Part shown: one piece after another, positions 13,301 to 49,300 of the stretch
Layout: the number at the start of each line of letters is the position of its first letter
Position numbering within the stretch: the first letter of the stretch is position 1
Assembly (NCBI GenBank): GCA_016212665.1
Contig: JACREZ010000014.1
Span: forward strand, 1-50,022
Direction of reading: 5' to 3'
Source: Ignavibacteriota bacterium
Lineage (GTDB): Bacteria; Bacteroidota; Ignavibacteria; UBA10030; SZUA-254
Length of the DNA: 50,022 bases
Translations under genes and position numbers: made by a program
The notes under the pieces: generated by a model
Database searches by the model: none
The model's input: the letters and a program-made list of their open reading frames with translations, nothing else
Told to the model about the DNA's origin: nothing

Positions 13301-16300
13301 CAATCAATTTGCTGAGTGGAATGAGCAGAATAACGTTATGGGTTCTGATGTCAACATCGGAACATGGTTAACGCTTCGTGGAATGAAGTGGAATGACCTT
13401 GATGGCAATGGCGTCAAAGATGAAAACGAACCCGGAATAGCCGGTTGGACGATATCTCTTGATAATGAAGGGACCACCACCACCGATGCAAACGGGAATT
13501 ATGAGTTTGTCGGTGTACCCGCAGGTACGCATACTGTATCTGAGTTCAATGATACAGCATGGACACAGACGTATCCGCCTACAGGAACATATTTCTTCTC
13601 CGTTTCGGTTGAAAGTACGCTTACCGGTTTGAACTTTGGTAATAAGAGAATTCCTAACGGCGTTATCTCCGGATTGAAATTCTATGACAAAAACGGAAAT
13701 GGACAACAGGATGAATTTGAAAACAGCTTGAGCGGATGGGTCATCGAATTGTTCTTGCCAGGCGATCCCGGACAAACATGGTACGATACGACAGATGCAA
13801 ATGGTATGTACTCATTCAGCGGACTTGCACCCGGAACCTATACTGTTTCAGAACAGAATCAGTCAGGGTATGTACAAACGGCGCCGGTATCTCCCGGAAC
13901 TTATACACTTACAGTTGATTTCGAGGCAGTATTTTCAAATAAAAACTTTGGAAATTTTGCATACGATAATTTCTTCGGTTATAAATTTGAAGATGTCAAC
14001 GGTGACTCTACCGATAATGACGAGCCGCGTTTATCCGGTTGGACAATTTTGCTGATGAAGGGCGAAGATACAGTTGCAACAACTGTCACAGGCTCTGAAG
14101 GCGAATTCAGTTTTGATAACGTCGGTCCGGGAACATACACAATCCGTGAAGTCAATCAGGCAGGATGGGACCAAATAGTTCCCGGCTCTCCCGGTTATTA
14201 CACAGTGAATGCGTACAGCGGTTCGGAACGAGACCCGTTTGTTTTTGGTAACAGGCATAGTGCTGGAATTTCAGGAATGAAGTTCAACGACCTGAATGGT
14301 AACGGTTCACGCGATGAAGGTGAACCCGGCTTAGCAAACTGGCAGATCGTTCTACGCGGCGCCGCATCCGATACGGCTATAACAGATGTGGATGGAGCAT
14401 ATTCATTTGCCATCACATCGAGCGGAAAATATCTGGTGAGTGAAATTCAACAGAATGGTTGGGTTCAAACGACAACGAATCCGGACTCCATCAGTGTTGT
14501 TCTCGGTCAGAATGTTAGCGGTGTGAATTTTGGAAACTATCAGACTGCCTCAATTTCCGGTATGAAATTCCTCGATGCCGATGCAGACAGTGTGAAAGAC
14601 CAGAGTGAAAACGGTTTACAGGGCTGGACAATCAAAGCGACAAAGGGATTATCTCAGAAAACTGCAGTGACCGATGCTAATGGTGCATACTCATTCTCGT
14701 TCGGTCCTTCGGAAACGGGAACATGGATTATTAATGAAATGTTGCAAGTTGGCTGGACACAAACGTTCCCTGCAAACTCGACATATTCGATTAATATTCA
14801 ATCAGGGACTGCAAGTGCAAATGTAGATTTTGGAAACTATCAGGGTAGTTCAATCTCCGGTAAAAAATTCGAAGATGTTGCCGGTGATGGAGATACTGCG
14901 GGTGACCCGACCTTAAACGGATGGACGATTGAATTGTACAGCGGTGAAACATTGGTTGCTTCTACAACAACTTCCGGTGATGGAGAGTATGAATTCGGAA
15001 ATCTCGCCCCCGGAAGTTATATCGTTCAGGAAGTATTGCAACAAGGATGGTTACAAACATATCCGGAGAACGGTTCATATTCTGTTACCATCGCGTCAGG
15101 TTCAAATGTAACAGGGAAGGACTTTGCAAACTTTGAACTCGGCTCAATCAGCGGCGTGAAGTTTCTTGACTTTGATGGTGACTCGGTGAAAGATGCCGGT
15201 GAAGTTGGTTTGGCAAATTGGGAAATCACCTTAAAAGAGGGAGAAGCAACAGTTGCCACAGATACGACAGATGAACTCGGTCAGTATAGCTTCACGGGGT
15301 TAACCGCCGGTTCATATGTAGTCGCTGAAGTAATGCAGGATGGTTGGTATCAAACAACTCCTGTAAGCGGAGAGTATCAAATAGATGTTGTCAGTGGTAC
15401 GGTTGAATCAGGGAAAAATTTCGGTAACTTTGAGTACGGTACAATCAGCGGTACGAAATGGTTCGACCGTGATAGTAGCGGAACGCGCAATATCGCCTGC
15501 GAAGGAATGTTACCAAATATCAAGATGGTGTTGTATGGAACAAACACTGCCCCCGATACAGTCACCACGGATGAAAACGGTGAATTTACGTTCAGCAATG
15601 TTCCAGCCGACGTATTTACATTGACAGAAGCAAGTAATCCTCTCTGGAACCAAACATATCCGTCAAATGGAACGCCGTATTCGATTACAATGGTGAGCGG
15701 TTTAGATACTACGGGATTGGAATTTGGAAATTTCTATGTCCCAGACACAGGTAAATTCCGCACATTTATTCTTACTGATTATAACGCCGCACGTCGATCC
15801 CCACAAAAATCAGGGTTCATTAGAAATCCAACGGCAGGTAATGTTCGTGACACAGTCTTTATTCGTAAAGGATTCGGTCTCGAAAATGCCAATGATAGTG
15901 GCTATCTCCGCATCGGTATCAAAAGACCCGATAGCGCATTAATAAATACGTGGGGATGGTTCTTCCATCGTTGGCAGGTTTATAAAGGACCTGCAGTGAA
16001 ACATTGGATTTACAACAAGAAAGCGTGGGGAACAAAGCGTGACCCAAAAACAAAACAACAGGTTCCGCGTAATCCCGCATTCTATCTCAATGGAGTTGTC
16101 GGTGAACAAGTTACAGAAACATACTTTGGCAATGCCGGTAACCACCTCACAATGGAATTGACAACACTGAAAACAAACGTAGCGGCGAGCGATCTTGGAA
16201 TCACTCCGAAAGGATTGGGTGATTTGATTTATGTTTGTCGTGATACTACAGCAGACAGTGTTTTTGTTGGAAAGTCAATCAGAACGATTATCGCTCATGC

Positions 16301-16874
16301 TGATACAGCATTAACGATGGGTCGGGCAATTCGGAATGTCAGCGCAAACCATATTGATACTACGTATCGTCATCCGGTTTCCTATCTCACGTTGCTCGAT
16401 TCTGTTATCGCACGTATCAATCGCGAATTCAGAGCGACAAAAATTGATACAATATCAACCAAGCCTTTGAAATTGAAAGGCGTGAAAGGTTTGTACAAGG
16501 TATCATACTTAATGCGCGATAGTATCGCTCCGGTTCCGTTAGCACACTTCGAACCGAATTATGCGACAGAAGAAATTCCGGCAACGTTCAAGTTAGAACA
16601 GAACTATCCGAATCCGTTCAACCCGATGACGACGGTACAGTTTGAGTTGCAGGTTCCATCAAAGGTGACGCTCAAGATTTATAACCTTCTCGGACAGGAA
16701 GTTGCTACTATCCTGAATGATGTTGACATGGAAGATGGAGTTCAGGCAATCGAACTCGATGCAACAAGTTTCTCTTCGGGCGTCTATTTCTACAAACTTG
16801 AAGCGAATGGATTTGACGAAGATGGTCAGAAACATTCGTTCCAAAGTGTAAAGAAAATGACATTAATTAAGTAA
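10353..16874 (+). CDS. Giant T9SS surface protein: discoidin-like, PKD, toroid, CARDB, eight SdrD-B domains
   Basis: 2173 residues. AGAGGAGA at 10338-10345 supports the ATG at 10353. Order: signal peptide to about 27; conserved LLNNYEPP ... TPEESW motif (40-62); discoidin/F5-8C-like domain (about 76-219); PKD (225-325); squalene-cyclase-like toroid (327-690) with GGWRYGVA, STTQWPALNLEAAEKSWG and a calcium-type loop DTDGDGKG; two PKD domains (692-885, WDWDAS and NWDTDGNG); CARDB (887-1004); eight SdrD-B-like repeats of 90-100 aa (1006-1794), most with a DxNGNGxKDxxEPG calcium loop and ending in FGN; a 275-aa module shared with five neighbours (1798-2072); and a T9SS type A sorting domain (2083-2173). 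It is probably a stalked surface adhesin or binding protein. The toroid lacks DxDD, so catalysis is not expected. Confidence 0.88.
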   Translation: MKQVILRSLTAFICVVSMLTGTNILFAQNQNSILQQGQDLLNNYEPPKMVTPVETMTPEESWREKMVQQQSLMSSIRYASTVLAYSTQYSGTSWSAARALGAPDVYPNYGDNSYAWASGSPDGQREYLEFLFNNPAPVSSIAIWETYNPGAVDTIYVKNPSTSLWEVVWSGSAVSAGSSSRIFSVNFTSTAYNVSEVRIAINSPAVGGYNEIDAVGISSSAINQLRVNTMPSYTTSTTYGNALAGQQIMVWGNANGGTGPYSYVLDFGDGTNTTGSVSSPNNRMIGANHTYATAGNKMMKLTVTDALGAVSSDSSVIRVYAAATTTISVNMAIEKGLLYLYQNQYSDGHWADNSNVKASTGAALLCFEENGHKPTNDFDRDIYAEYVRLGLNYLLSGASQYNIYAQTAGNPDTDGDGKGAYLEGSSHATYVNGIANLAVIGAHNNAANAQLDTITVGVYAGKTFYDYGVDMVDQWAFSQTESGTPAYRGGWRYGVATANYGDADNSTTQWPALNLEAAEKSWGIVAPSFVKSELAYTLANTQDGTGGFGYSQMSYWNNITKTAAGIGSLVYKGENSSSASVISAINFLNNNWNSGNLDAYSWSNHFYGNTYAMYGVAKGMRIMDNHTGLQFIGTHDWYAEYVDHLLNNATWKQNSNGSWPRNASYAPTSYMGDPLNSSFAILVLTQGVVIPPPVAVIDPVSPRPSNTAFQVFGNSSYHQDPNKSIVSYSWDWDASNGINFTTPDASGQNPINPGYPSPGAYTITLRVVDNGDPAQYDDVSATVEINDTANHPPVAVAIPPGSGGVYAGRVGEPITLDATFSYDPDEPNDSVVAYNWDTDGNGIYGDATTPQVTLTFNNEYNGQVGVKVYDTHGDSSINNAYITIYASRRDLFVESFTSTPYYASVGGQLHVVAVFKNNDTSDAAANSVQVKFYDEDPYTTGNQIGSPFTVDLPIGGRDTIDTYLTIPSLPYGDRQFYVFVDANNQFAEWNEQNNVMGSDVNIGTWLTLRGMKWNDLDGNGVKDENEPGIAGWTISLDNEGTTTTDANGNYEFVGVPAGTHTVSEFNDTAWTQTYPPTGTYFFSVSVESTLTGLNFGNKRIPNGVISGLKFYDKNGNGQQDEFENSLSGWVIELFLPGDPGQTWYDTTDANGMYSFSGLAPGTYTVSEQNQSGYVQTAPVSPGTYTLTVDFEAVFSNKNFGNFAYDNFFGYKFEDVNGDSTDNDEPRLSGWTILLMKGEDTVATTVTGSEGEFSFDNVGPGTYTIREVNQAGWDQIVPGSPGYYTVNAYSGSERDPFVFGNRHSAGISGMKFNDLNGNGSRDEGEPGLANWQIVLRGAASDTAITDVDGAYSFAITSSGKYLVSEIQQNGWVQTTTNPDSISVVLGQNVSGVNFGNYQTASISGMKFLDADADSVKDQSENGLQGWTIKATKGLSQKTAVTDANGAYSFSFGPSETGTWIINEMLQVGWTQTFPANSTYSINIQSGTASANVDFGNYQGSSISGKKFEDVAGDGDTAGDPTLNGWTIELYSGETLVASTTTSGDGEYEFGNLAPGSYIVQEVLQQGWLQTYPENGSYSVTIASGSNVTGKDFANFELGSISGVKFLDFDGDSVKDAGEVGLANWEITLKEGEATVATDTTDELGQYSFTGLTAGSYVVAEVMQDGWYQTTPVSGEYQIDVVSGTVESGKNFGNFEYGTISGTKWFDRDSSGTRNIACEGMLPNIKMVLYGTNTAPDTVTTDENGEFTFSNVPADVFTLTEASNPLWNQTYPSNGTPYSITMVSGLDTTGLEFGNFYVPDTGKFRTFILTDYNAARRSPQKSGFIRNPTAGNVRDTVFIRKGFGLENANDSGYLRIGIKRPDSALINTWGWFFHRWQVYKGPAVKHWIYNKKAWGTKRDPKTKQQVPRNPAFYLNGVVGEQVTETYFGNAGNHLTMELTTLKTNVAASDLGITPKGLGDLIYVCRDTTADSVFVGKSIRTIIAHADTALTMGRAIRNVSANHIDTTYRHPVSYLTLLDSVIARINREFRATKIDTISTKPLKLKGVKGLYKVSYLMRDSIAPVPLAHFEPNYATEEIPATFKLEQNYPNPFNPMTTVQFELQVPSKVTLKIYNLLGQEVATILNDVDMEDGVQAIELDATSFSSGVYFYKLEANGFDEDGQKHSFQSVKKMTLIK

Positions 16875-16881
16875 GAGTAAA

Positions 16882-16920
16882 AAGGGCTGGTTGAACAAAC
16901 AACCAGCCCTTCTTATTTTT
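16882..16920 (+). terminator. Intrinsic terminator after the 2173-aa gene
   Basis: A perfect 12-bp stem, AAGGGCTGGTTG (16882-16893) with CAACCAGCCCTT (16900-16911), has a 6-nt loop and is followed by CTTATTTTT. It starts 8 nt after the stop codon and makes the next gene a separate transcription unit. Confidence 0.9.
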
Positions 16921-17222
16921 GGAGGTACGCGGGGTAAAATTTTTGTAATAACTTCCTTGAAATTGTAAAAGGAAGTCAGTACATTCACAAAGCATATCAT
17001 ATGCCTCACTTATGAAAAATAAGTGACAGTCAGTTCTTTCCATTTAACTATCAGTTCTTTCCCCGATGTATCAACGTCGGAATATCATTCGTTGAGTCTC
17101 GTTAACGAACATTGCTAACGAGCAAGTATTACAATAAATATATTTTCATTTTTTTGCGCGGCAACGAAGTGTGCCGGCTATTTTTTTCTAACACTAAACA
17201 ACAACTATTAGTTGAGGAAGTT
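16921..17222 (+). promoter_or_regulatory. Structured upstream region of the 2820-aa gene
   Basis: No gene is visible here. The DNA holds four hairpins: ACTTCCTT/AAGGAAGT (about 16951-16977), TCACTTAT/ATAAGTGA (17006-17026, perfect 8 bp), CTCGTTA/TAACGAG (17098-17122) and CGGCA/TGCCG (17159-17176). The last is followed by a T-run at 17179-17187. A 12-bp direct repeat TCAGTTCTTTCC occurs at 17030-17041 and 17051-17062. A TTTG (17153-17156), N22, TATTTTTT (17179-17186) pair is a possible promoter overlapping the last hairpin. Which of these acts in regulation is not clear. Confidence 0.4.
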
Positions 17223-23200: not shown

Positions 23201-25685
23201 AACTTCGACGGCAATTGATGGAACATATCAATTCACCATCACCTCAGAAGGAACATACACAGTTACTGAAATCCAACAAGCAGGATGGGTGCAAACAACG
23301 CCGTCGTATCCTCCGTTTACCGTAGTGTTCGGACAAAACGTTACCGATGTTGATTTCGGAAACTATAAACAGCCGAAGATTACCGGAATGAAGTTCGAAG
23401 ATTTGAACGGCAACGGAATAAAAGAGCAAGGTGAACCGGGCTTGAGCGGCTGGACAATCAAAGGAACAAAAGGTCAATCAACAAAAACGACAGTGACAGG
23501 AGGAGATGGTTCCTACACCATGCTGTTTGATTCAACGGAAATCGGGTCGTGGACTATCAGTGAAATCCTGCAACAGAACTGGCAACAAACTTTCCCGGCG
23601 AACGGAACATATTCAGTGAACATCCAATCGGGTGTTGAAGTGAATAATCTCGATTTCGGGAATTTTTTGCCTGCTTCAATTTCCGGTCAGAAATTTAACG
23701 ATATGAACGGTGACAGTTTGACCTCAGGCGACCCGACGTTGAACGGATGGACAATTCAATTATGGAAGGGTGAAGTGTTAGTTGGAACTGTGGTTACTTC
23801 CGGTAATGGAAATTATTCATTCGGGAATTTGATGCCGGGAAATTACAATGTCATGGAAGTGGTTCAACAAGGATGGGTACGAACTGCGCCGCAAGGCGGA
23901 GTCCACCTCGTTACACTTACTTCCGGAATGAATGTCACCGGAAAAGATTTTGCCAACTTCAAACTTGTTTCCATCAGCGGGATGAAGTTCCACGATTATG
24001 ACGGTGATTCAATCAAAGATGTGAACGAAAGCGGATTACCCGATTGGCAAATTCTTCTTCAGAAGGATGGAGTTCCGTTTGATACGGCAATCACCGACGC
24101 GAATGGAAATTATTCGTTCACAGAATTGTTTGCAGGTGAGTACAATATCTGTGAAGAAGTTGTTGAAGGATGGTATCAGACAAAACCTACATCCGAATGT
24201 TATTCGGAGACGATTGTCAGTGGCGGTAATCTTGCAGACAGAGATTTCGGCAACTTTGAGTTCGGTACGATTGCCGGTTACAAATTCTTCGACCATGACA
24301 GCGCCGGAGATTTTGATACTCAGTTCGATGACTTCTTGGACAGTTTGAGAGTTGTACTTATCGGTACTCATACTCAGCCGGAAACTGTGTTAACGGATGC
24401 GAACGGACAATTTCTGTTCGGGCAAGTCCCGGCTGATAATTATACAATAAAAGAAGTTCCGCGGGCATTGTGGAGACAAACGTACCCGACACTTGGCGCC
24501 TCCTATTCATTAACGATGGTGAGCGGGTTGGATACAAGCGGATTCGTGTTTGGAAATTTCTACATGCCTGATACAGGGAAGTACAGAACGTTTATGCGAA
24601 CAGATTATTACAAAGCCGCTTCTGCGAAACCGAGAGGCAAAACACAAATTAAGAAGCCGAACGCAGGAAATATTCGCGACAGCGTTTTTCTCAATCGCGG
24701 CTACGGTTGGGATTCTCCGATTGACAGCGGGTATCTCCGTGTCGGTGTCCGGCGGTATGATAGCACCGATTGTTACGGCTGGTTCTTTTTCCCGTACGAT
24801 AGCATCCGGGAAAAGACTCAACGGAAACGCGGCTATCACGCTCCGTCAGTCTCGAAATATCAATTTGCCAAACCATGGAAGAAAGAACCGAAGACTAACT
24901 ACTCATGGTGGACAGGTGAAATCAATACGTCATCGCAGTTTGCGAATGCAACGAATCATCTTGGCTTTGAGTTGCTCACACTGAAAACAAACGTGGCCGC
25001 GAGCGACTTAGGACATACGCCTGTCGGTTTGGGTGATTTGGTGTTCGACAGAATTTCCGGTCCCGATACAATCTTTAACAACATGACCATCAGGCAAATA
25101 ATCGCGCAGTGCGATACGGCATTGACGATGGGAATAAAACATTGTCCCGCTCCGGCTCCGGTTGATACCATGATTCCGATTTCGCGATTGATTATCATGG
25201 ATAGTGTTGTCACCAGATTGAATCGCGATTTCTGGAAAGCGCTTGATTCGAGAAAGTTTACCGACTCGATTTCAACAAGTCCGTTGCGGTTCAAAGGAGC
25301 AGTTGCATTGTACAAAGTACCATACCTGAAACGAGATGTTACGAAGGTAAGTGCGCTGACTAGATTTATTCCGACGGTTACGCAATCTGCTATTCCGTAT
25401 GAGTATTTGTTGGAACAGAATTACCCGAATCCGTTTAATCCCAAAACTGTGATTCGTTATCAATTATCCGTTACAAGTACTGTAACATTGAAAATATATG
25501 ATATGCTCGGAAGGGAAGTTGTCTCAATGGCAGATAATGAAATAATGGATGAAGGTGATTACGAAATGGAATTCGATGCGTCCGATTTAGCATCCGGTGT
25601 TTACTTCTATCGCTTGTTAGCGAACGGTACGGATGATAACTCAGCAACATTCGTTGATGTAAAGAAGATGTTGCTTGTCAAATAG
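17223..25685 (+). CDS. Giant T9SS surface protein with toroid, PKD, CARDB and twelve SdrD-B domains
   Basis: About 2820 residues from the ATG at 17223, which has TTGAGGAAG just upstream and gives a signal peptide (MNTVTRLLFATCVVATIV ... SFAQ). The in-frame ATG at 17112 adds a non-signal stretch. Order: LLKNYKIP ... TPQQSW motif shared with the previous protein; three 24-aa charged repeats (about 114-189); a beta domain resembling DUF3344 (229-493, YLYWSG, GDGQSWVDDNLYING); five SdrD-B-like domains (498-999), three of them Tyr-rich; PKD; toroid (1105-1444, GGWRYTANY, SAVQWHSLVIEAAEKLWG, loop DSDGDGIG); two PKD; CARDB; seven more SdrD-B domains (1760-2446); the shared pre-sorting module (2451-2726); sorting domain (QNYPNPFNPKTVI to the end). 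It is a paralogue of the preceding gene with a large N-terminal insertion, and its likely role is surface binding. Confidence 0.88.
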   Translation: MNTVTRLLFATCVVATIVFFSTSFAQKQQPSKDVMSKGMELLKNYKIPAPSNPPEVETPQQSWERRSREQSKFTNKPTVVPEQKIEPAETQYLGGGSNKKLIDQFQQQSSQQTPEKMRAVLEEKIRNGEVKDYRTLSIEEQKKQLQDKIQRGEVKDMRQLSVEEMKWQLDEKIQKGEVKDLRSDEQKNIQGNNVQGTRRDGRTLGEELSIKPKATINEKGWTPIEPFNDISNFQIIHNADMVAAGYGGMRTIGTGTLTLAGVSGTIQKAYLYWSGPTLSLNPNANANVMFAGNPVTGVNIGFSNDNCWGGTNSQAYRADVTSLVTGNGSYSLAGFLQSDADINGVSLIVFFNDGNSANDRDFVIFDGNDSNINNPYDAVGWNVLLSGINYTSGTANVVLHVGDGQSWVDDNLYINGLVLAPGPQVFAGNTVPNGPSAANTNGGLWDIKTFDITSYMSPGINNFLLTTGYATDGDCLGLVAAIVDLPAGSAPQEFGTAKIQGMKFNDTNGDSLKGVDEPGLQGWIIRLHQGDSLVSTVITDPMGNYTFANLLPGTYTVSESLKNGWNQTVPATPGTYTVIVDSGQIVTGKDFGNKMVATNFVSGMKFHDLNANGQKDSGEPGLAGWTINAYGYYYGGQWSAVTDNNGNYTIAIVSQPDYYRVDETGQAGWLQTVGNWGWDWLTANGDTIHVDFGNRLAFPNYFTGMKFNDLDRNGLKDSGEPGLPGWTITVNGYNTGGSWSAVTDSNGMYFITSHSYPDYYFINETNQTGWTQTLGNYSWIYRNAVGDTGVYDFGNRANYPNYFTGMKFNDINHNGVKDQGEPGMAGWTITVSGYYNGGSWSAVTDTNGMYFIATHAYQDYYFVNETNQPGWYKTTPAYDWWYQYATGDTAFNTDFGNWLVPLGSIRGMKFHDLNYNYSKDPGEPGIPGWTIHATKQSDGTIYTTVTDANGMYAFDSLTMVSYYTVSEEQQMDWIQTYPNGNWSFQVAGDTVVDINFGNYLPPQGPLRVNTLPSYSVNTNYGNALAGVPLAVWGNVHGGVVPLQYVLDYGDGTIESGTVTYRRYIGTNHTYATAGYYSMTLTITDNLGAVDVDGSVVRVFAGSTPEIQRNMAIERGLLYDYLHQYADGHFTGSDAQAATGASVLSFEENGHLPNNNINTDIYAEYVKQGLDYLFSTAATSIIYAQTAGNPDSDGDGIGSFLSGSVYANGIALLSVIGAHPSAISAQADIITVGPYNGQSYYEFIVDALDQIAFSQTDVGEYGRGGWRYTANYASNGSSDNSAVQWHSLVIEAAEKLWGRTIQPFVKSELLIWLQYSQDGSGGFGYTDPGNWNNPAKTGSGIGSYAALDYLSTSAPVTNAISFLDAYWNYDNFGNLYAMYAVKKGMSIIDNRSGVSLIGAHNWRDEYNSYLVSTQGADGSWSSTWVNGPDALSTSFGVLILTPGVSQLRPVAVIAPISSKPPNTSFAVDGSGSHHMDPNKTIIEYLWDWDVSNGVDWNNPDAVGPNPTNPGYPNNGTYTISLRVKDNSDPALFDYDTKQVIVQSTNNPPVAVPIPFARGPVYAARVGEPILLDGRDSYDPDYPADSVIAFNWDTNGDGIHGDVTTDTITVVFNNEYNGQVGLRVYDTHNDSSTNNAYITIVSSRKDIFVEQFIVNPGFGSSGDSLDFFAVFKNDDLSNLNVMNVLVRFYDENPRTTGNQIGGDFYVDLPIGTRDSVSTRLKLPTLPSGARSLYVYLDANDNFAEWDEVNNFGSFQFSVGSFASILGQKFEDVNGNGEKDVDEPGIPNWKIFLGGARNDSTITDVNGNYSFGYITPGTYTVSEDDESLWVQTKPANPNYYTINASLDSAYMGNDFGNFHVGTISGMKFLDVNRDSLKGESEPGLEGWTINLIGVNGTVSTVTDANGNYSFTNVGPGEYDIEEVIEPGWFQTFPKSIVYEVSMLSNSNLYGYDFGNYQSMTISGMKFNDLNGNGVKETGEPGLPNWKIVLQGAIAETTSTAIDGTYQFTITSEGTYTVTEIQQAGWVQTTPSYPPFTVVFGQNVTDVDFGNYKQPKITGMKFEDLNGNGIKEQGEPGLSGWTIKGTKGQSTKTTVTGGDGSYTMLFDSTEIGSWTISEILQQNWQQTFPANGTYSVNIQSGVEVNNLDFGNFLPASISGQKFNDMNGDSLTSGDPTLNGWTIQLWKGEVLVGTVVTSGNGNYSFGNLMPGNYNVMEVVQQGWVRTAPQGGVHLVTLTSGMNVTGKDFANFKLVSISGMKFHDYDGDSIKDVNESGLPDWQILLQKDGVPFDTAITDANGNYSFTELFAGEYNICEEVVEGWYQTKPTSECYSETIVSGGNLADRDFGNFEFGTIAGYKFFDHDSAGDFDTQFDDFLDSLRVVLIGTHTQPETVLTDANGQFLFGQVPADNYTIKEVPRALWRQTYPTLGASYSLTMVSGLDTSGFVFGNFYMPDTGKYRTFMRTDYYKAASAKPRGKTQIKKPNAGNIRDSVFLNRGYGWDSPIDSGYLRVGVRRYDSTDCYGWFFFPYDSIREKTQRKRGYHAPSVSKYQFAKPWKKEPKTNYSWWTGEINTSSQFANATNHLGFELLTLKTNVAASDLGHTPVGLGDLVFDRISGPDTIFNNMTIRQIIAQCDTALTMGIKHCPAPAPVDTMIPISRLIIMDSVVTRLNRDFWKALDSRKFTDSISTSPLRFKGAVALYKVPYLKRDVTKVSALTRFIPTVTQSAIPYEYLLEQNYPNPFNPKTVIRYQLSVTSTVTLKIYDMLGREVVSMADNEIMDEGDYEMEFDASDLASGVYFYRLLANGTDDNSATFVDVKKMLLVK
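17563..17790 (+). repeat. Three tandem 24-aa charged repeats inside the 2820-aa protein
   Basis: The protein contains EKIRNGEVKDYRTLSIEEQ, DKIQRGEVKDMRQLSVEEM and EKIQKGEVKDLRSDEQ in register at a 24-residue period. The repeat core is xKIxxGEVKDxRxLSxEE. Charge and heptad spacing suggest alpha-helical or coiled-coil structure linking the signal-proximal motif to the beta domains. Confidence 0.8.
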
Positions 25686-25870: not shown

Positions 25871-28222
25871 ATGAAATCTTGTAAACAATTTCTTTTTCTT
25901 TTGATATTGGCGGGCATCATGATTGAACCCCTGAGCGCTCAATATGTGCGGCAATGGGTCGCCCGCTACACCGGTCCGACGAAAAAGACAAACGAAGTCG
26001 CCTCGATGATGACAGCCGATGATTCGGGCTTTGTCTATGTTACGGGGTGGACAAAACGTAAATCCACAAACGTAGATTATGTAACACTGAAATATTCTCC
26101 CGATGGAGAACTCATCTGGCAGGCATTTTACGGAGCGACAGGGAAAGGTGACGATAAAGCGCTCGCCGTCGCGGTTGATACTTCACATAATGTCTATGTG
26201 ACGGGAACATCGGCAACAACAAGCAGTGGTTTGAATATCGTGACGGTAAAATATGATAGCAACGGGGTTATTCTCTGGACGAAATCGTATAGCGGCTCCG
26301 GCAACGGAGAAGATGTACCGGTTGCTATCGCCGTGAATGATTCTCAGCATGTTTATGTTTCCGGCTACAGTGTGGGTTCGGGGACGAGTTATGATTATGT
26401 AACAATCAAATACGATTCACTCGGAAATGAGGTATGGGCAAAACGATACAACGGTCCGGCGAATGGCGATGACCGTGCATACGCGATGGCGTTACGAGGA
26501 ACTACCGATGTCTATGTTACTGGTGCAAGCACCGATACGATGTATGATTATTTCACCATCAAATACAACGCGGCGACAGGTGATTCATTATGGGCGGTTC
26601 GATACAACGGCTCAGGCAACGGAGATGATATCGCGCGAGCGATTGTGTTACGAACCTCGACCGATGTAGTCATCACCGGAAGCAGTAAAGATTCTGTCAA
26701 CGGTTTTGATTATGTCACCATCAGATATAGTTCTGCCGGAGCGGAAGTTTGGAACGCGCGATATAACGGCAACGCAAACAGCGATGACCATGCGTACGCA
26801 ATTGATATTCACAGCAATAGCAGGATATATGTCACCGGGAGAAGTTTACAGGTGGGAAGTTTCAACGATGCGACAACAGTGAAATATAATTTCAGCAATG
26901 GCTCGGAAGATTGGGTGCAATCATTTAACGGCGCCGCGAACGATGATGATAAGGGATTGGCAATGCTCGGTGGCGGTACGCCGTACATTGCAGCGGCAAG
27001 CAGTGGTTTCGGTGTCGGGTATGACTACGCGTTGATTTCCTACAACGGAAGCAACGGCGATGAAAATTGGAATACAACGTACAATGGGACAGGAAACCTC
27101 GACGATGTTCCGGCAGATATACTTTCATCCGGCGGAGCGATTTACGTTACCGGGAAAAGCAGTCCTGACAGCAAAACAACCGATATTGTTACGATTAAAT
27201 ATGTTGACCAAAATAAACTGAAGTACCGGACAGTAATTCAGGATAGTTTGGCAGGAAAGGCGAACAATGTAACGAAGGTGGCGGCAAATTATGGGAACTT
27301 CCGCGATACGGCATTTGCACGGGCATTTCCGAAAATCAAAAAAGGATTTCCGGGCGCGCCGGGAGGAATGGTTCTTGGCAATGCACGACCTGACAGCGCG
27401 CTTGCATACGGATGGGTTCGCATGACAAGCGGGAAAGCGATTACGAAATTTATTCCTCAAACCGGTACGCCGCGCGGGTTTGATTTGTATGGCGGAGTTA
27501 CGTTTGTCGGTGAGAAAAAAGACGCGAAACTCGATAAGTACAACAACAAACTTGTCGGCAACCTGATTGCATTACGTCTCAACATCGGGGCGAGCGATGC
27601 GGAAGTTACGCCACCGACCTTTGGTGATTTAACCTACGAGGGATTTGATACTGTCGGCGGATTAGTATTAACGGGAATGTCGTTGCGACAGATTGCTTCA
27701 CTGACGGATAACTTCCTCACATACTGGCAAAAATATCCGACTCTCGAATGGAGCCGGCTTGATTCAGTTCTTGATAGAATCAACTCTGCATTTACCGGAG
27801 AGTTGAAGGTCGTCAGTGCGCAGCCATTAGTGTTTACGGGTGTAAAGTTGATTGACAGTGTTGCGTTCTTATCACCCGGAATTGCGCCAATCGCTGAACC
27901 GTTGAAATTCATTCCCGGCTCGCTCGATGAAACGCCGAACACGTTTGCGTTGAGTCAGAACTATCCGAACCCGTTCAACCCGACAACGGATTTCGGATTT
28001 CGGATTTCGGATTTCGGATTAGTGAATTTGAAGGTGTATGATATGATTGGAAGAGAAGTAGCAATCGTTGTTGATAATCAGGCAATGGAAGAAGGAGAAT
28101 ATGAGTTTTCCTTCGATGGTTCTTCGCTTGCAAGCGGTGTCTATTTCTATCGGCTGACCGCGACTTCTCTTGAGGACGGAACAACGTTTTCCGAAACAAA
28201 GCGGATGTTGATGATGAAATGA
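25871..28222 (+). CDS. SBBP-repeat beta-propeller T9SS protein (paralogue 1)
   Basis: 783 residues. AAGGA lies 9 nt before the ATG, and the signal peptide ends in LSAQ. Residues about 25-445 are seven to eight repeats of about 52 aa with the cores DYVTIKYDSxGNxVWxxRYNG, GDDxAxAxAL and VYVTGxS, which is the SBBP (beta-propeller) repeat pattern. Residues about 450-690 are the shared pre-sorting module (GNFRDTAFARAFPK, LNIGASDAE, FGDLTY, INSAF). The last 85 residues are the T9SS type A sorting domain, with a 7-bp DNA repeat written into it as DFGFRISDFG. SBBP propellers are extracellular and of unknown ligand. The next gene is a close paralogue, so a tandem duplication is clear. Confidence 0.87.
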   Translation: MKSCKQFLFLLILAGIMIEPLSAQYVRQWVARYTGPTKKTNEVASMMTADDSGFVYVTGWTKRKSTNVDYVTLKYSPDGELIWQAFYGATGKGDDKALAVAVDTSHNVYVTGTSATTSSGLNIVTVKYDSNGVILWTKSYSGSGNGEDVPVAIAVNDSQHVYVSGYSVGSGTSYDYVTIKYDSLGNEVWAKRYNGPANGDDRAYAMALRGTTDVYVTGASTDTMYDYFTIKYNAATGDSLWAVRYNGSGNGDDIARAIVLRTSTDVVITGSSKDSVNGFDYVTIRYSSAGAEVWNARYNGNANSDDHAYAIDIHSNSRIYVTGRSLQVGSFNDATTVKYNFSNGSEDWVQSFNGAANDDDKGLAMLGGGTPYIAAASSGFGVGYDYALISYNGSNGDENWNTTYNGTGNLDDVPADILSSGGAIYVTGKSSPDSKTTDIVTIKYVDQNKLKYRTVIQDSLAGKANNVTKVAANYGNFRDTAFARAFPKIKKGFPGAPGGMVLGNARPDSALAYGWVRMTSGKAITKFIPQTGTPRGFDLYGGVTFVGEKKDAKLDKYNNKLVGNLIALRLNIGASDAEVTPPTFGDLTYEGFDTVGGLVLTGMSLRQIASLTDNFLTYWQKYPTLEWSRLDSVLDRINSAFTGELKVVSAQPLVFTGVKLIDSVAFLSPGIAPIAEPLKFIPGSLDETPNTFALSQNYPNPFNPTTDFGFRISDFGLVNLKVYDMIGREVAIVVDNQAMEEGEYEFSFDGSSLASGVYFYRLTATSLEDGTTFSETKRMLMMK
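27990..28020 (+). repeat. 7-bp ATTTCGG tandem repeat inside a sorting domain
   Basis: Four perfect ATTTCGG units (27990-28017) plus ATT encode GFRISDFGL between FNPTT and NLKVYD. In the other sorting domains of the window this place holds a variable strand such as VIFDLP. The repeat stays in frame. Confidence 0.9.
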
Positions 28223-28494: not shown

Positions 28495-30864
28495 ATGAAA
28501 AAAAGTTACCAATATATTTTACTACTTATTAGTTTTGCATTGTTGAGCGCATACACAGATGCTCAATTAGCCCGTGAGTGGAAAGCACAATTCGGGAGTA
28601 TTAAAAAAGGAACCGACGGTGGAACTGCAATCACGGTGGATGATTCGGGATATATCTATGTCGGTGGATATTCACAAAGGAAAACGACCGGGATTGATAT
28701 GGTTGTTCTAAAATATCATCCGGATGGTGAAGTTCAATGGACTGCATATTACTCTTCGGGAGGAAAACTTGCTGACAAAGCGTTGGCAATTGCCGTAGAT
28801 ACAGGCAACAATGTTTACGTAACAGGAACAACACTCACTTCCTCAAACGGATTAGATTACGTGACGGTCAAGTTTGATACTTCCGGCAGTTTGCTTTGGT
28901 CTGTTACATATAACGGAACAGGGAACGGAGACGATGTCCCTGTTGCCATTGCTGTAAACGATTCGCTGAATGTTTATGTGACCGGTTCAAGTCAAGGAAG
29001 CGGAGGAACGGGACTTGATTTCGCCACAGTGAAATATGACCGAGACGGTAATCTTGTTTGGGCAAAACGATTTACAGGAGATGGACATGGCAATAAACGT
29101 GAAGATAAAGCAACTGCAATGGCGCTTCGCGGCACAGAGGATTTATACGTGACCGGGTATTGTACGGAAGGAACAGCCAACTTCCTGACGATAAAATACA
29201 ATGCAATCACCGGCGATACTGTGTGGACAGCCCGCTATAACGGACCGTCAGATTTGCAAGATATGGCAACTGCGATTGTTCTTCGAAGTACCAGCGATGT
29301 TTTTGTGACGGGCTCCAGTCAGGATGTTGCCAATGGCTATGATTATCTTACCATCAAATATGACACCGCCGGAAATGAACAGTGGGTTTCCCGGTATAAT
29401 GGAAATGCAAACTCCGATGATATGGCGTGTGCGATAGCGATCAGCGGAACTACGAGAGTCTATGTTACCGGAAGAAGTTTACAGGTAGGGAGTTCCAATG
29501 ATATTGTTACGGTAAACTATAACATGTCAACGGGAGCGGAGGATTGGGTCTCAATATTAAATGGAACGGCAAACGATGAAGATGCCGGTGTAGCAATTCT
29601 TGGAGGAAATAATCCTCATGTGATTGGAAAAAGTACCGGGTACGGAGTGAAATACGATTATGTGTTTCAGGAAATAAAAGGAAGCAACGGCGACGAAAAC
29701 TGGAACACGCGGTACAATGGTTCGGGGAATGCAGATGACATCCCGGCGGCAATTGTTTCCTCCGGTACAGCATATTATATCACCGGCAGTACGAGCCCGG
29801 ATGGTAAGACAACAGATATTCTTACTATCAAATATAATGATAAGAAGAAAATGAAATTCAGAACATTCCTGCAGGATAGTCTCTATCAAAAAGGAGTGGC
29901 GCTGAAAACATTAGCGGTTGTTCCTAATTACGGAAATTTCCGGGATACATCCTTCGCACGGGCATTCCCGAAAATCAAATCCGGAAACCCCGGTGCGCCC
30001 GGTGGTATGGTGATTGGCAATCCGAGACCCGATAGCGCGACGCAATACGGGTGGATGCGGATAACGAAGGGACCTTCCATCATCAAGTTTATCACGCATA
30101 CATCTGCGCCCCGCGGGTTTGATACATACGATGGAAATCCTTTTGTCGGTGAAAAGAAAGACCCGAAACTTGAAAAATACAATAACAAACTTGTCGGTGA
30201 ACTGCTTGCGTTAAAACTCAATATCGGAGCCAGCGATGCGGAAGTCACCACGCCGATGTTCGGCGATTTAACATACGAAGGAGAAGATACGGTAGGCGGC
30301 GTTGTGCTTACCGGGATGACGTTACGGCAAATCGTCTCGCTCACCGATAATTTCCTTACGTACTGGCAAAAATACCCGACGCTCGAATGGGTAAAACTTC
30401 ATTTGATTTTGAAGACAATTAACAATTCATTTACAGGTCCGTTGAAGATTGTCAATCAACAGCCGCTTGCTTTTACCGGCGCGGTTCATATTGATAGTGT
30501 TCCGCTTTTTGGCGCGCCGACCATTGCACCGGCAAATGAGCCGTTACGGTTTGTCCCCGGCTCGCTCGATGAAACGCCGAATGCGTTTGCATTGAATCAG
30601 AATTATCCGAACCCGTTTAACCCGACAACGAATTTCGGATTTCGGATTTCGGATTTCGGAGTAGTGACGTTGAAGGTGTATGATATGATTGGACGGGAAG
30701 TGGCAACCGTGGTGAACAATCAGACAATGGAAGAAGGGGAATATGAGTTTTCCTTTGATGGTTCTTCGCTGGCAAGCGGTGTCTATTTCTACCGGCTGAC
30801 CGCGACTTCTCTTGAGGACGGAACAACGTTTTCCGAAACAAAGCGGATGTTGATGATGAAATGA
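28495..30864 (+). CDS. SBBP-repeat beta-propeller T9SS protein (paralogue 2)
   Basis: 789 residues, with a signal peptide (MKKSYQYILLLISFALL ... DAQ) and AGGGA before the start. It has the same architecture as the preceding gene: SBBP repeats (about 25-450, for example DYVTVKFDTSGSLLW, DVPVAIAV, VYVTGSS), the shared pre-sorting module (GNFRDTSFARAFPK, LNIGASDAEVT, FGDLTY) and a sorting domain with the same in-frame ATTTCGG repeat. The last 72 nt before and including the stop are identical to paralogue 1 while the N-terminal halves differ much more, which suggests gene conversion or strong constraint at the 3' end. Ligand unknown; surface location follows from the sorting domain. Confidence 0.87.
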   Translation: MKKSYQYILLLISFALLSAYTDAQLAREWKAQFGSIKKGTDGGTAITVDDSGYIYVGGYSQRKTTGIDMVVLKYHPDGEVQWTAYYSSGGKLADKALAIAVDTGNNVYVTGTTLTSSNGLDYVTVKFDTSGSLLWSVTYNGTGNGDDVPVAIAVNDSLNVYVTGSSQGSGGTGLDFATVKYDRDGNLVWAKRFTGDGHGNKREDKATAMALRGTEDLYVTGYCTEGTANFLTIKYNAITGDTVWTARYNGPSDLQDMATAIVLRSTSDVFVTGSSQDVANGYDYLTIKYDTAGNEQWVSRYNGNANSDDMACAIAISGTTRVYVTGRSLQVGSSNDIVTVNYNMSTGAEDWVSILNGTANDEDAGVAILGGNNPHVIGKSTGYGVKYDYVFQEIKGSNGDENWNTRYNGSGNADDIPAAIVSSGTAYYITGSTSPDGKTTDILTIKYNDKKKMKFRTFLQDSLYQKGVALKTLAVVPNYGNFRDTSFARAFPKIKSGNPGAPGGMVIGNPRPDSATQYGWMRITKGPSIIKFITHTSAPRGFDTYDGNPFVGEKKDPKLEKYNNKLVGELLALKLNIGASDAEVTTPMFGDLTYEGEDTVGGVVLTGMTLRQIVSLTDNFLTYWQKYPTLEWVKLHLILKTINNSFTGPLKIVNQQPLAFTGAVHIDSVPLFGAPTIAPANEPLRFVPGSLDETPNAFALNQNYPNPFNPTTNFGFRISDFGVVTLKVYDMIGREVATVVNNQTMEEGEYEFSFDGSSLASGVYFYRLTATSLEDGTTFSETKRMLMMK
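30632..30660 (+). repeat. 7-bp ATTTCGG tandem repeat inside the paralogue's sorting domain
   Basis: Four perfect ATTTCGG units (30632-30659) encode NFGFRISDFG at the same place as in the preceding gene. Confidence 0.9.
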
Positions 30865-36880: not shown

Positions 36881-39325
36881 ATGAAAAAGTCTATACTACC
36901 TTTGTTGTTGTTGACCCTCTTCGTGGGGCAAACTCTCTTAGCCGATTGGCCCTGCCAAACAACTCAAAACGTCGTTGTCTCAATTAACAGTGGGATACAA
37001 TGGAACCCGCGCATCGCTTCCGATGGAAAAAGCGGGGCAGTTGTGGTCTGGCAAGACCGTCGCACAGGAATCGTTGACAAAGTCTTTGTACAACGAATCA
37101 ACAATCTTGGAAATGCAATGTGGCAGGATGGAGGAATTCCTCTTTCACTCAGTTCCGCCTATCAGGTGTTTCCACAAATCTCCGGCGATGGAACCGGCGG
37201 GTCGTTTGTCACGTGGATGGAAAACCGTAATGCCGTTGACTATGATATTTTTGTTCAGCGTGTCACATCGAACGGATTAACGCTCTGGAATCCGGGCGGC
37301 AACATCGTTTCCAACTACGGCGGTCATCAATATTACCCGATGATTGTCCGCGACCTCGGTGGTCAGGATGGAGTGATTATCGTTTGGCAAGACCAGCGAA
37401 GCGGGAACTATGATATTTACGCTCAGAAGTTTACCGGACTCGGACAGGCAATGTGGTCATCCGGCGGTGAAGTTGTTATTCAAATGAATGGCGACCAGGT
37501 GAATCCTTCAGTCATCAGCGATGGTCTCGGCGGCGCAATTATTACATGGACAGATTTTCGTTCCGAAAGCGGAACTTCGGATGTGTTCTGTCAGAGATTA
37601 CTTTCTGACGGGCGATTAGCATGGGTTCGTGAAGGTGTTCCGATTGCTGCGTTGACCAACGACCAACTCGCGCCACAATTAGTAACAGATGGAAAGAACG
37701 GCGCTATCATCGCATGGCAGGATAGACGCAGTGCAAGCATTGACAAAATTTTTGCACAACGAATAGATAAAGACGGAATTCAGCGCTGGATGGAAAATGG
37801 TGTTCCGCTGGCTTACTCAGCCGGAATTCAGGCAACACCGAAACTCGTCAGCGATAATCTTGGCGGCGCAATTGTAGTGTGGCAAGATAACAGAACCGGG
37901 AATGATTATGATATTTATGCCCAATATATCAATCAATACGGGCAGATGAAATGGTCAACGGAAGGATTATCGGTTTGTGTGATGAACGGTCAGCAATATA
38001 ATCCTACGCTTGTCTTTGAAGGTTCGTCCGCGCTTATCACATGGCAAGACAAACGGAATGAGGTAGATTTTGATATTTTTGCACAACGCATCAATTTATT
38101 CGGAGTTGCGTTGTGGTCACAAAACGGAAATCCGTTGCATACGAATTCATTCGACCAGGTGAACCCCCAACTCGACACCGATTTACTACGCGGCGGAATT
38201 GTCGTCTGGACTGATTACCGTGTCGGCGGCGGAAACACAGATTTATTTGCACAACGCATTGGTTCGAACGGAAAAATGGCGGGCGGATGCTACCGTTCGT
38301 TTACACAGGATAGTTTAGCGCAACGTTCGCTCCGTGTTCGTACGCCGATTCCCGGTACGCGTGCGCTTCGCGTTCACATGCCGAACACGGGAAATGTTCG
38401 CGATACAGTTTGGAAACGGGGCGCATTTCAGGATGGACTGATTGTTGGTGTTGACCGCCCGATTCGCTCTCGCGATTATGGTTGGATTTGGATTTCCATT
38501 CCGCATAACGTCCGACGAGCATTACCGATGCGCGGAACTCCCCGACCTTTCCGGTATCTTTCTTATCGTGATTTTAATAGTGTGTTGAGAAATCCACATG
38601 CTGCGCGCTACACAAACAGTCTTGTCGGCGAGTTGATAGCGTTGAAGCACAATATTGCCGCAAGCGATTCCCGTGTGACAGATCCGGGATTTGGAGATTT
38701 AGTCTATCGTGACCCAACGGGCAGACCGAACCCGTTAACGAACAGGTCAATGAGACAAATCGTCCCGTTCCTTGATAGTGCATTGACGTTCTGGCGAGAA
38801 TACACGTGGCTGAACTATGCACAAGCAGATACTGCATTGAAAGCCATCAATAAAGCATTCAGCGCCAGAGTGGATACGTTCTCTACGATTCCTTTGAGAA
38901 TCAAGCCGGTGAAAGCGCTTTTCTCTGTTCCGAATTTAATACCGAATCCCGACACTGCGCTTATGGCTCCGCCGATTGTTTATTCTCCCATGACAATTGA
39001 TGAAGAAGACAACATCACAGAGCCGTTCGAGTATGACTTACTTCAAAATTACCCGAATCCATTCAATCCGGCAACAACGATTGAGTTTTATCTGACAGAA
39101 CGTGCAAAAACGTCGCTTCGCGTCTATAATACGCTCGGTCAGGAGGTAGCGGTACTACTGGATAATGTAGATTTGGAAGCAGGAACACAGACCTTCGATT
39201 TCGATGCCTCCTCTCTCACTTCGGGTGTGTATTTCTATCAGTTAGTGATGGAACAATTTCCGACAAATGCAGACGAAGAAGTATATCCGGTAACGGTTAT
39301 GAAAAAAATGGTCTTGATGAAATAA
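36881..39325 (+). CDS. Eight-repeat WxDxR propeller-like T9SS protein
   Basis: 814 residues, with a signal peptide (MKKSILPLLLLTLFVGQTLL-AD) and GAGAG upstream of the ATG. Residues about 38-465 are eight repeats of 50-55 aa with the cores DGxGGAIVxWQDxR, (Y)DIxAQRI and GxxxWxxxGxPL, probably the blades of a propeller. Residues about 470-715 are the shared pre-sorting module (GNVRDTVWKRGAF, LKHNIAASDSR, GFGDLVY, LKAINKAF), and the end is a T9SS type A sorting domain (NYPNPFNPATTIEFYL ... KMVLMK). The repeat type is common in T9SS proteins with no known ligand. The two neighbours with a different C-terminal module flank it. Confidence 0.85.
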   Translation: MKKSILPLLLLTLFVGQTLLADWPCQTTQNVVVSINSGIQWNPRIASDGKSGAVVVWQDRRTGIVDKVFVQRINNLGNAMWQDGGIPLSLSSAYQVFPQISGDGTGGSFVTWMENRNAVDYDIFVQRVTSNGLTLWNPGGNIVSNYGGHQYYPMIVRDLGGQDGVIIVWQDQRSGNYDIYAQKFTGLGQAMWSSGGEVVIQMNGDQVNPSVISDGLGGAIITWTDFRSESGTSDVFCQRLLSDGRLAWVREGVPIAALTNDQLAPQLVTDGKNGAIIAWQDRRSASIDKIFAQRIDKDGIQRWMENGVPLAYSAGIQATPKLVSDNLGGAIVVWQDNRTGNDYDIYAQYINQYGQMKWSTEGLSVCVMNGQQYNPTLVFEGSSALITWQDKRNEVDFDIFAQRINLFGVALWSQNGNPLHTNSFDQVNPQLDTDLLRGGIVVWTDYRVGGGNTDLFAQRIGSNGKMAGGCYRSFTQDSLAQRSLRVRTPIPGTRALRVHMPNTGNVRDTVWKRGAFQDGLIVGVDRPIRSRDYGWIWISIPHNVRRALPMRGTPRPFRYLSYRDFNSVLRNPHAARYTNSLVGELIALKHNIAASDSRVTDPGFGDLVYRDPTGRPNPLTNRSMRQIVPFLDSALTFWREYTWLNYAQADTALKAINKAFSARVDTFSTIPLRIKPVKALFSVPNLIPNPDTALMAPPIVYSPMTIDEEDNITEPFEYDLLQNYPNPFNPATTIEFYLTERAKTSLRVYNTLGQEVAVLLDNVDLEAGTQTFDFDASSLTSGVYFYQLVMEQFPTNADEEVYPVTVMKKMVLMK

Positions 39326-39699: not shown

Positions 39700-39845
39700 T
39701 GCTGTCTCCACTCTGCCCTTCAATCAACCTTTAAATCACTCAACGGCAAGCGGAATCAATTTAATCTACCACAATCAACCATGAAGTTGAAATACGAAGA
39801 GTTACCTCATTTCGTTTACACTCACATTTCTTTTTGGAGAAATCT

Positions 39846-43075: not shown

Positions 43076-43095
43076 GATATTTAACACAAATTTAA

Positions 43096-43127: not shown

Positions 43128-43357
43128 CACCGAACATTTAGTACCCCAAACGCTTCTCAGCAGAACAATCAACAACAGCATGACAATGTACAGCATTTTT
43201 CAGGAAGTAGTGTCTCCGTATGCAAATTGAGAAAACCATACGACGACAAGAGAACACAGGCGAGGCGGCTGAGAGCATTCCACACGATTTTTACAAACCT
43301 ATTTTTTTAAGACAATTCACTAATTCACTAACCATAAACAACCAAAAAGGAACGTTT

Positions 43358-46300: not shown

Positions 46301-49300
46301 TTTATTTTCGACGTACCGGATAGCAATACAACCTATGCCGCGGTTGCAACAAGCGGCGCATGGTATCCGAATCTTATTTATAAATCTACCAATGCAGGCG
46401 GAAAGAAAGCATACAAACCTTCCAACTCAACCGGATTTGGTGATCAGTTTGTGAAAGGTAATTTAACCATTGAAGCCGGCGTTACCGATACAGTCGGCGG
46501 CGTATTCAATGAAGCATTGGAATTACATGGCGACCTGATCAACTACGGTACGTTGATGTCGGTTGCTTCTTCATGGGTAGAATTTGCAGGAAGCGATCAA
46601 CAGGAAATTAGCGGTAACCCCGTAACATTCTACAATGGTTTTGTTATGAACAATCCAAATGGAGTTGCATTGCAAACGAACGTGACTGTTGCAGGTGGAA
46701 CAGCAACATTCACCAATGGTGATATGTTAACAGTGACAAACTCTGTTTCACTTGACCCGGCAGGAACATTGCTGGAAACAAATGGAACAATCAAAGGAAC
46801 CGTTACTGCGACGCGTACACTTTCACAAAGCGTGAATAATACATTCGGTGATATCGGAATGGAAATCAATGCACTCAGTGCAGCGCCCGGTGTGACCACA
46901 GTAAATCGTACGACGGGTACATTCCTTACAGGAAATGATAATCAATCAATTCGCCGCTTCTTTGATGTTACGACAGCAGGAACACCACCGTTCAATGCAA
47001 CCGTTGTTCTCAAGTATGCTGAGTCCGAATTGAACGGCAATGATGAAGCAACGTTATTCCTCCACAAATCAACCGATGGTGGAACGACATGGAGCGGAAA
47101 AGGCGGTACGCCGAACACTTCGTTAAATAAAGTGACGACGACTGGAATTAATACCTTCTCACGATTCACACTCGCATCGTCATCAACTCCGTTATATGCA
47201 ACTCATACAATTACAATGCGCAAGTATGAAGATGCGGACGGAGATTTAGGAACTGCCGGTACATTGAAGAAATGGTACATGGAATTATATGAGAATTCCA
47301 TTGCTCCGGAAAACCTTGTCAACTCAGGGAACTTCAATACAGTGACGACAGAAAATCTCGCCGCAGGTATGTACATTGCCAAAGAAGCTGACAGTTCAGG
47401 CTGGGTACATGTCGGTACAATCGTTGATAATGGTTCAGGTGCGGTTTCCCGTTATGGTTCGCACAGTTACGATACAATTGTTGTCGGTGGCGCTGTTCCC
47501 GGTACAGTTGATTTCTATAATTCACGTGTTAGCAGTATTACGATTAATAAATACCGCGACCGTGACGGTGATGCAGGCACAACGGGAGACCAGACAGCAA
47601 AAGAATGGGGTCTTGCACTCTATAAAGATGCAGTCAGCGGTTCACCGATTGCAGAAGGAAATACATCTTCCCTCGTTGTTGAAAATCTTGCAGGCGGAAC
47701 GTATATCGCCGTAGAAGCAGACAGCGCAGGATGGTTCCCTGTCGGCGGTTCAAACTACGATACCGTCACCATTGCGTCGAATGAAAATGTTACTATCAAT
47801 TTCTACAACGTGAAAGCAAACACTCTCACAGTCAGAAAATATCAGGATGATGATGGCGACCCGCTTACGGTTGCAGACCAGACATTAAAGTCATGGTATC
47901 TCGAAGTTCACAGCGGTTCTGCATCGGGACCGGTTGTGTTCAGCGGTACAGCATCAAGCATCTCCAACTCAATGTTGGCTGATGGTATGTATTATGTCAC
48001 CGAAGCGGACAGCACTCCGTGGGTCAGTCTCGGCTTCAAAGTTGATGGAGTGTATGCAGAAAATTCAGCAGGACAGTTTACCGGTAGTGTTGAATTACTC
48101 GATGGACAAAGTTCAACATTCGATTTCTTCAACGCACCCGCAATTTACGGAAGCAAATTCCGTACGTTCAATCCGGATAGTATTGCGACTGCACGCGATA
48201 ACTTCGGAAAGATGGGGAAAGTTGTAAAGAAGAAAGCAGATAAAGTAGAATTCGTATTGTATACGGTCAATGACCAAACCGGTGTGAATGCTTTACACAT
48301 GGAATTCACGGTTGCAGTTGATACTGCAAAAGAATTCTATACAGAACCTACCTCGTCAGCAGTCGAAGTAGTAAAATCGGGACTCAAGAAATGGAACTTT
48401 ACCTTTAATTCTCCATTGAATAACGGCGATACAGTTCGTGTGTATGGATGGGGAAAGAAAGGTTCCATCCAGAAAGTTGGTAAATACTATTGGATGAACG
48501 GAACAACGAAAGTCGGCGTAGATAAAAAGAATCCAACCTTTACGCTGAATCAACTCCGTCTCCCGATGCCGAATCGCATCAATGTTGCTGAAGAAACATT
48601 CGTGCAGGGTGCATTCACTGCAACCAACGGAATGTTGATTGGTGCACGCACGGACAGCGCAAAAGCATACGGCTGGGTCATTATGAAAAAGGCAGGTGAC
48701 TTGCTCACATCACTTGGTAAACCATCAAAAGACATAGTGAATTTCCATGACAGTGCAGCACATGGCTTTGACAGACTTTCCAACGGAAAAGTTTTCCTTG
48801 GAAAGAAAACCTCATTGCCGGCAAAGACTCAGGACAACGTCTTGTTTGCAAACCTTGCCGCATTGAAGTTAAGTATTGCCGCATCTGCTCTTGAAAAAAC
48901 TCCTATTGGTTTGGGTGAATTGATTCTTGCAGATACGCAAGCAAACGTATTGAACGATATGACGCTCGCACAGATTGCCGTAAAGGGCGATTCCATGATG
49001 AGCGGCGGTGTCGGTCGCACGTTTGAATCAGCAGACGCATTTGCGAACCTCAGCAACACCATCCGCCGGGTTCTCGATGCGTTTGAAGGTGATATGGATA
49101 CTGTGACTTTCGGTTCAAAGTTAGTAACCAAAGGCGCACAGCGTTTGATTGATTGCACAATTCTCCGTGCAAACCCGACGGCAATTCCGGCACGCATCAT
49201 TCCGACGACAGAAAACATACTGCCCGAAACGTATGCGTTGTACCAGAACTATCCGAACCCCTTCAACCCGGCAACAACCATCGCATTCGACTTACCGTTC

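Follow-up and report, generated by a model that had tools for sequence, protein, structure and literature searches.

The window analysed here is the whole of a 50,022-nucleotide stretch of DNA from an Ignavibacteriota bacterium (assembly GCA_016212665.1, contig JACREZ010000014.1, positions 1-50,022 of the forward strand). Six of the proteins it encodes share a module that lies directly N-terminal of a type A tail, the C-terminal sorting domain of the type IX secretion system (T9SS). The module had first been noticed in a sequence-only reading of this DNA, which described it as a region of 230-275 amino acids with a series of fixed sequence points, beginning with an FRTF motif. Both the six places, which agreed within tens of bases, and the order of the fixed points in all six copies were borne out. 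The copies, their parts and the adjoining tails (PF18962) are as follows.

15756..16592, + strand: module copy 1, in protein P0001 (10353-16874)
16605..16811, + strand: T9SS type A tail after copy 1, PF18962
24582..25409, + strand: module copy 2, in protein P0002 (17112-25685)
25422..25628, + strand: T9SS type A tail after copy 2, PF18962
27224..27949, + strand: module copy 3, modelled alone, in protein P0003 (25871-28222)
27962..28168, + strand: T9SS type A tail after copy 3, PF18962
29857..30591, + strand: module copy 4, in protein P0004 (28495-30864)
30604..30810, + strand: T9SS type A tail after copy 4, PF18962
38291..39037, + strand: module copy 5, in protein P0006 (36881-39325)
39050..39247, + strand: T9SS type A tail after copy 5, PF18962
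48158-49237, + strand: module copy 6, whole, in protein P0008 (43220-49519)
48158..48562 (end approximate), + strand: FRTF motif and immunoglobulin (Ig)-like beta domain ahead of the helical part of copy 6, model residues 1-135
48563..49207 (approximate limits), + strand: folded module of copy 6, model residues 136-350
49208..49261, + strand: low-confidence linker before the tail of copy 6, residues 351-368, predicted local distance difference test (pLDDT) <50, where cutting would be expected
49250..49456, + strand: T9SS type A tail after copy 6, PF18962

Copy 6 is longer than the others (360 amino acids), with the Ig-like beta domain inserted between FRTF and the helical part. The six copies are part of a larger set, as a profile built from them found 36 in the genome. 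The FRTF-like motif is separated from the profile match by 0-26 residues in 18 of these 36 copies and by 107-163 residues in 10, and its pattern was not found in the remaining 8.

The module is an undescribed folded domain

Leave-one-out profiles, each built from five copies and scored against the sixth, gave 176, 154, 277, 256, 144 and 79 bits for copies 1-6, where for copy 6 only the sequence behind its insertion was scored. Among 200 shuffles per copy, the highest scores were 6.4, 5.3, 13.0, 1.7, 1.9 and 6.4 bits, respectively. The alignment therefore holds under profile scoring.

No NCBIfam family was matched by any of the six copies, and the Pfam search of the module gave a best E value of 0.17. 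When 33 members consisting of module plus tail were scanned, only tail families and scattered single hits from Pfam lay over the module. A sequence search against solved structures returned a best E value of 0.25. Literature text searches found no pre-tail domain of this sort named in titles or abstract openings, and the motif words GYWKNHP, GYWKTHP, TQGGWG and TQGYWKN were absent from the literature searched. The module is an undescribed folded domain that is present in neither Pfam nor NCBIfam, in agreement with the sequence-only reading, which treated it as an unnamed module.

The AlphaFold2 model of copy 3 alone, calculated from 33 alignment rows, reached a mean pLDDT of 77.1 and a predicted template modelling score (pTM) of 0.76. 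Its core spans approximately residues 25-215, with pLDDT >90 across most of residues 51-190, while the FRTF end and the final ~20 residues were predicted with low confidence; a fold covering the full length first assigned to the module is supported for the core rather than for its two ends. The predicted fold opens with short strands and one short helix; three longer helices come next, and the LKLNIAAS motif lies in the first of these. The model of copy 6 together with its tail (453 residues, pLDDT 88.3) shows the Ig-like beta domain (residues 1-135), the module, the low-confidence linker (351-368) and a beta-sandwich tail, in this order. The tail part resembles Ig-like structures, including the tail of PorU (6za2, Z 8.7, root-mean-square deviation (rmsd) 2.5, 88 residues).

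These results leave no room for a linker or a chance resemblance, a reading which we consider extremely improbable because the leave-one-out scores (79-277 bits) far exceed those of the shuffles (≤13.0 bits) and both models contain a confident core. We found no support for it, apart from the low confidence at both module ends in the copy 3 model. The earlier judgement that the region is too conserved to be a linker was well founded.

Structure searches with the module returned little. The best Foldseek match in the PDB had an E value of 3.1, and the best result of a VIA search had Z 2.7 with an rmsd of 5.0 over 105 residues; the fold-search lists for copy 6 plus tail covered mainly the tail. 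The missing PDB match is no proof of a new fold. The single significant fold match of the module was the 'Ig family protein' A0A6N1NZ86 of Tupanvirus (Foldseek E 5.7e-6, probability 1.00), which aligns over 183 columns with 22% identity. This viral protein comes from a giant virus of amoebae and is itself a predicted model only, and the TM-score amounts to 0.48 by module length. A literature search for 'Tupanvirus' with 'Ig family protein' found no paper. Among viral contigs, the GYWKNHP pattern was found at the DNA level in 6 stretches, none with the domain. A resemblance of the LKLNIAAS helix to AAKLNVANGAD / GYWKNHP-type segments of secreted proteins, suggested in the sequence-only reading for the AAKLNVANGAD part, was not confirmed, as neither the pattern nor a consensus of such segments yielded a real example for comparison; the consensus also had no match in plasmids.

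The best-kept polar columns of the module are N108, N120, S124, N25 and D162. No recognisable catalytic set was found among the columns kept in ≥60% of the 36 copies.

The module adjoins a type A tail and is confined to part of one order

Type A tails (PF18962) gave 150 matches in the genome of the window. All 36 modules lie in frame and 12-231 bases upstream of such a tail, so that the newly defined domain precedes about a quarter of the T9SS tail matches of this genome. The other 114 tail matches are without it: a filter-free search of up to 300 residues before these tails peaked at 9.1 bits (E 0.005), far below the weakest of the 36 copies, which scores 46 bits.

Within the order to which the genome belongs, T9SS tails were present in all 98 genomes and the module in 22 of them, 76 being without it. 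The distribution follows families, with 15 of 15 genomes in the family of the window, 4 of 5 and 3 of 3 in two further families (22/23 over the three) and none of the 75 genomes in the three remaining families of the order. Among 395 genomes across the phylum, near full-length matches were found only in the window genome and in two others, all of the same order. A scan of named genomes gave 27 loci, from metagenome-assembled genomes (MAGs); MAGs with the module had been deposited as Ignavibacteriae, Ignavibacteriales, Ignavibacteria, Bacteroidetes, Bacteroidota, Chlorobiaceae or uncultured bacterium.

A tail directly follows the module in 62 of 62 loci, 59 of which come from other genomes (59/59), although some of these 59 represent one gene reached through two collections, and the 36-copy alignment, which runs into the first tail residues in 30 of its 36 rows, slightly favours tail-bearing hits. 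Loci in other genomes are the best-scoring matches only; match counts per genome were capped and are lower bounds. The expectation that the module always stands next to a type A tail was thus confirmed wherever it was examined. The reverse does not hold: most tails, and most genomes of the order that possess T9SS tails, are without the module, so that T9SS export in general does not require it.

Module-bearing tails form a distinct subtype

The tails that follow the module differ from the other type A tails of the genome. The distance from the SGVY motif to the end is 29-38 residues in all 35 module tails measured, whereas ≥27 residues were found in 39 of 104 module-less tails. A subtype defined by a PNPFNP-to-SGVY distance of 56 together with a long last hairpin comprises 34 of the 35 module tails and 9 of the 104 others (Fisher p 6e-23); these measurements omit 1 of the 36 module tails, which was cut at an edge, and 10 of the 114 others (1 open, 9 without the motif). 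In other genomes, where only module tails were measured and 3 of 59 were unmeasurable, 48 of 56 belonged to the subtype. Module-bearing tails are therefore a distinct subtype of the T9SS type A cargo tail (Por_Secre_tail, PF18962 / TIGR04183), which stands behind every module copy examined, while the module itself lies outside this known tail.

A tail tree calculated without the last hairpin required 11 changes of the module label versus 31.2 in shuffles, with none of 500 shuffles as low. Module and tail distances were correlated with r 0.28 (0/2000 permutations as high) and, among 19 diverged copies, with r 0.34 (4/2000 permutations). The tail subtype suggests a coupling of module and tail. 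Two module-less tails are almost identical to tails from nearby module genes (L190 with L040, and L234 with L037), from which it follows that tails are exchanged or modules are lost.

The module is related to a wider domain family

A profile of all 36 copies gave partial matches in 18 more genomes of the same class; these matches represent a domain that begins with TQGGWG. In a profile-profile comparison, the module matched 20 examples of this domain with a probability of 98.3% (E 1.8e-14, 132 columns), and the alignment extended to the part ahead of the original hits. In reverse, the TQGGWG profile found module copies at E values from 5e-6 to 3e-4. The N-terminal TQGGWG segment lies outside the alignment, which begins at profile column 23; the module is therefore a relative with a form of its own and not simply a member of the TQGGWG family. 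This domain is likewise absent from Pfam and NCBIfam, as no entry for it was found in three members scanned, and its best hit among solved structures had an E value of 0.53.

Near full-length TQGGWG matches were present in 20 genomes, and one protein from each of 19 was examined. Each of the 19 carries a type A tail at its end. For the TQGGWG hits, a flavobacterial origin was considered and dropped because of these tails and because the names of the module's relatives are those of Ignavibacteria-type and Bacteroidetes-type MAGs. Unlike the module, the TQGGWG domain is separated from the tail by 800 residues or more in 17 of the 19 proteins; it adjoins the tail in the other 2, from another family of the phylum, where signal peptide, domain and tail make up the whole protein. 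The tails also differ, as all 17 that were measurable (2 of 19 were not) are ordinary and none is of the subtype described above. Four of the proteins were scanned for partner domains, which revealed pAdhesive_15 in 4, SdrD_B in 3 and the thioester domain TED in 2. The profile comparison shows the module to be a distant branch of a wider, undescribed extracellular domain found in adhesin-like proteins.

Some members of this wider family deserve mention. The large T9SS-tailed proteins at L278:4616-9784 and L285:4426-8661, from T9SS bacteria of the class of the window genome, contain TED, the TQGGWG domain, SdrD_B, DUF11, pAdhesive_15 and propeller repeats and resemble thioester adhesins. A relative of the TQGGWG domain stands behind a signal-peptide-like start on a plasmid of Planctomyces sp. 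SH-PL62 (L162:3902-4360), where its frame breaks off beneath an IS5 transposase that is annotated on the opposite strand. According to PMC11285876, T9SS genes are absent outside the Fibrobacteres-Chlorobi-Bacteroidetes (FCB) phyla; in Planctomycetota, the domain would therefore act without T9SS. A scan of viral contigs for the wider domain gave 104 pattern matches and no relative.

Cargo architectures and secretion machinery

The six proteins had been described as sharing the module behind unrelated N-terminal domains. The sharing stands, but the N-terminal parts are not unrelated in all six. P0001 and P0002 are 46% identical over 1484 amino acids, P0003 and P0004 56% over 455 amino acids, and P0008 contains a stretch of ~230 amino acids with 28-32% identity to P0001 and P0002. 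Judged by these identities, they represent about four architectures, two pairs being paralogues. A Pfam scan of five of the six proteins (all but P0002, which is related to P0001) identified PKD, CARDB and SdrD_B in P0001 and beta-propeller repeats in P0003 and P0004; in P0006 and P0008, the tail alone exceeded the cut-off. In the upstream stretches (≤500 residues) of 30 of the 36 copies, SdrD_B was found in 14 and propeller repeats in others. The frequent SdrD_B recalls the TED/SdrD_B adhesin-like surface proteins, with the difference that none of the five window proteins scanned had a TED match and that the module is no thioester domain.

The genome encodes PorU (938 bits, cut-off 420) and PorV (255 bits, cut-off 250), whose genes lie side by side on contig C28:84241-88821. 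With a C-terminal Por_Secre_tail and both of these genes in the genome, the module-bearing proteins bear the sequence marks of T9SS type A cargo. The PorV model had ten matches, one above the cut-off and nine at other places below it, and PorV-paralogous shuttle-like proteins may exist in this genome.

Further observations concern neighbouring genes of the window. The gene ahead of P0001 (9150-10286) matches prenyltransferase/cyclase-type alpha-alpha toroid families, and a stretch in P0001 (10353-16874) and P0002 resembles it by eye. Two more T9SS proteins (31815-36251 and 39834-42992) are without the module and share, again by eye, another repeated pre-tail stretch of the GWNMVS / GYWVK type, which is also visible before several module-less tails.

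Possible role of the module

The explanation that we favour, with a probability of roughly 0.58, is a non-enzymatic surface domain that forms the last folded part of the mature protein and is inherited together with its own tail subtype. In one Ignavibacteria-related clade, the module is fixed as the last folded domain ahead of the T9SS tail and has spread along with this subtype onto many cargo proteins. From T9SS biology in other species, one would expect the tail to carry the protein through the T9SS and to be cut off in the disordered linker behind the module; PMC11969387 places the T9SS cutting sites of Prevotella intermedia in a coil that connects the tail to the structured domain preceding it. 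After cutting, the module would be the surface-proximal end of the attached protein, most likely serving as a base or binding domain by which stalks and propellers are held in place at the cell surface. SdrD_B would be a stalk-like partner, which would fit such a domain. In favour of the explanation are also the constant place of all copies before the tail, the relation to the TQGGWG family of adhesin-like proteins, the tail subtype with the clustering of module tails on the tail tree, the folded core with its low-confidence linker, the presence of PorU and PorV, and the absence of a recognisable catalytic set.

Several points weigh against this explanation. The surface placement and the binding role of the module are predicted ones. 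Its strict position and its tail subtype exceed the needs of a freely moving surface domain, and the correlation of module and tail distances is modest (r 0.28). The subtype also occurs in 9 of 104 module-less tails and is missing from 1 of 35 module tails in the genome and from 8 of 56 elsewhere, and the tail tree rests on 64 columns, with 2 further rows left out, and has few supported forks. Finally, the lack of a catalytic set is weak evidence against an enzyme.

An enzyme acting at the cell surface was rejected on this weak evidence and seems very unlikely: a conserved folded core would suit it, whereas the missing catalytic set and the attachment of one small domain to very different partners would not. 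We regard as similarly remote a general helper in T9SS export, processing or anchoring, for which the sequence-only reading had suggested the module; its constant place beside the tail agrees with such a role, which is already largely refuted by the 114 of 150 tail matches and the 76 of 98 T9SS-bearing genomes of the order without it, and by the TQGGWG domain, which is remote from the tail in 17 of 19 proteins and in Planctomycetota stands once behind a signal-peptide-like start. What the tail subtype leaves open of that suggestion is a clade-specific coupling to the tail. The module might dock on its own tail subtype, with the longer last beta-hairpin, and form with it a composite sorting unit, a joint signal for a dedicated PorV-like shuttle and thus a second class of T9SS cargo. 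This proposal, which we consider improbable but a fair rival, is consistent with the strict adjacency (36/36 in the genome, 59/59 loci elsewhere), with the subtype contrast (34/35 versus 9/104, and 48/56 in other genomes) and with the ten PorV matches. It is also consistent with RgpB of Porphyromonas gingivalis, in which, as stated in PMC11285876, secretion is blocked by a strand 6 mutation that upsets the contact between the tail and the domain before it. The copy 6 model lends a rigid contact no support, as 18 low-confidence residues separate module and tail; moreover, nine module-less tails share the subtype, two nearby gene pairs have near-identical tails with and without the module, and the PorV matches below the cut-off may represent different members of the family. 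Doubtful, too, is the more specific version of a clade-specific sorting and docking unit in which the module packs against the lengthened hairpin and selects one particular PorV-like shuttle. The module may take a direct part in sorting or docking, although this is unproven.

The strict pairing of the module with one tail subtype raises the question of how far the T9SS machinery recognises, in addition to the tail, the domain that precedes it. Should the two act as a composite unit, this clade would run a second class of T9SS cargo.

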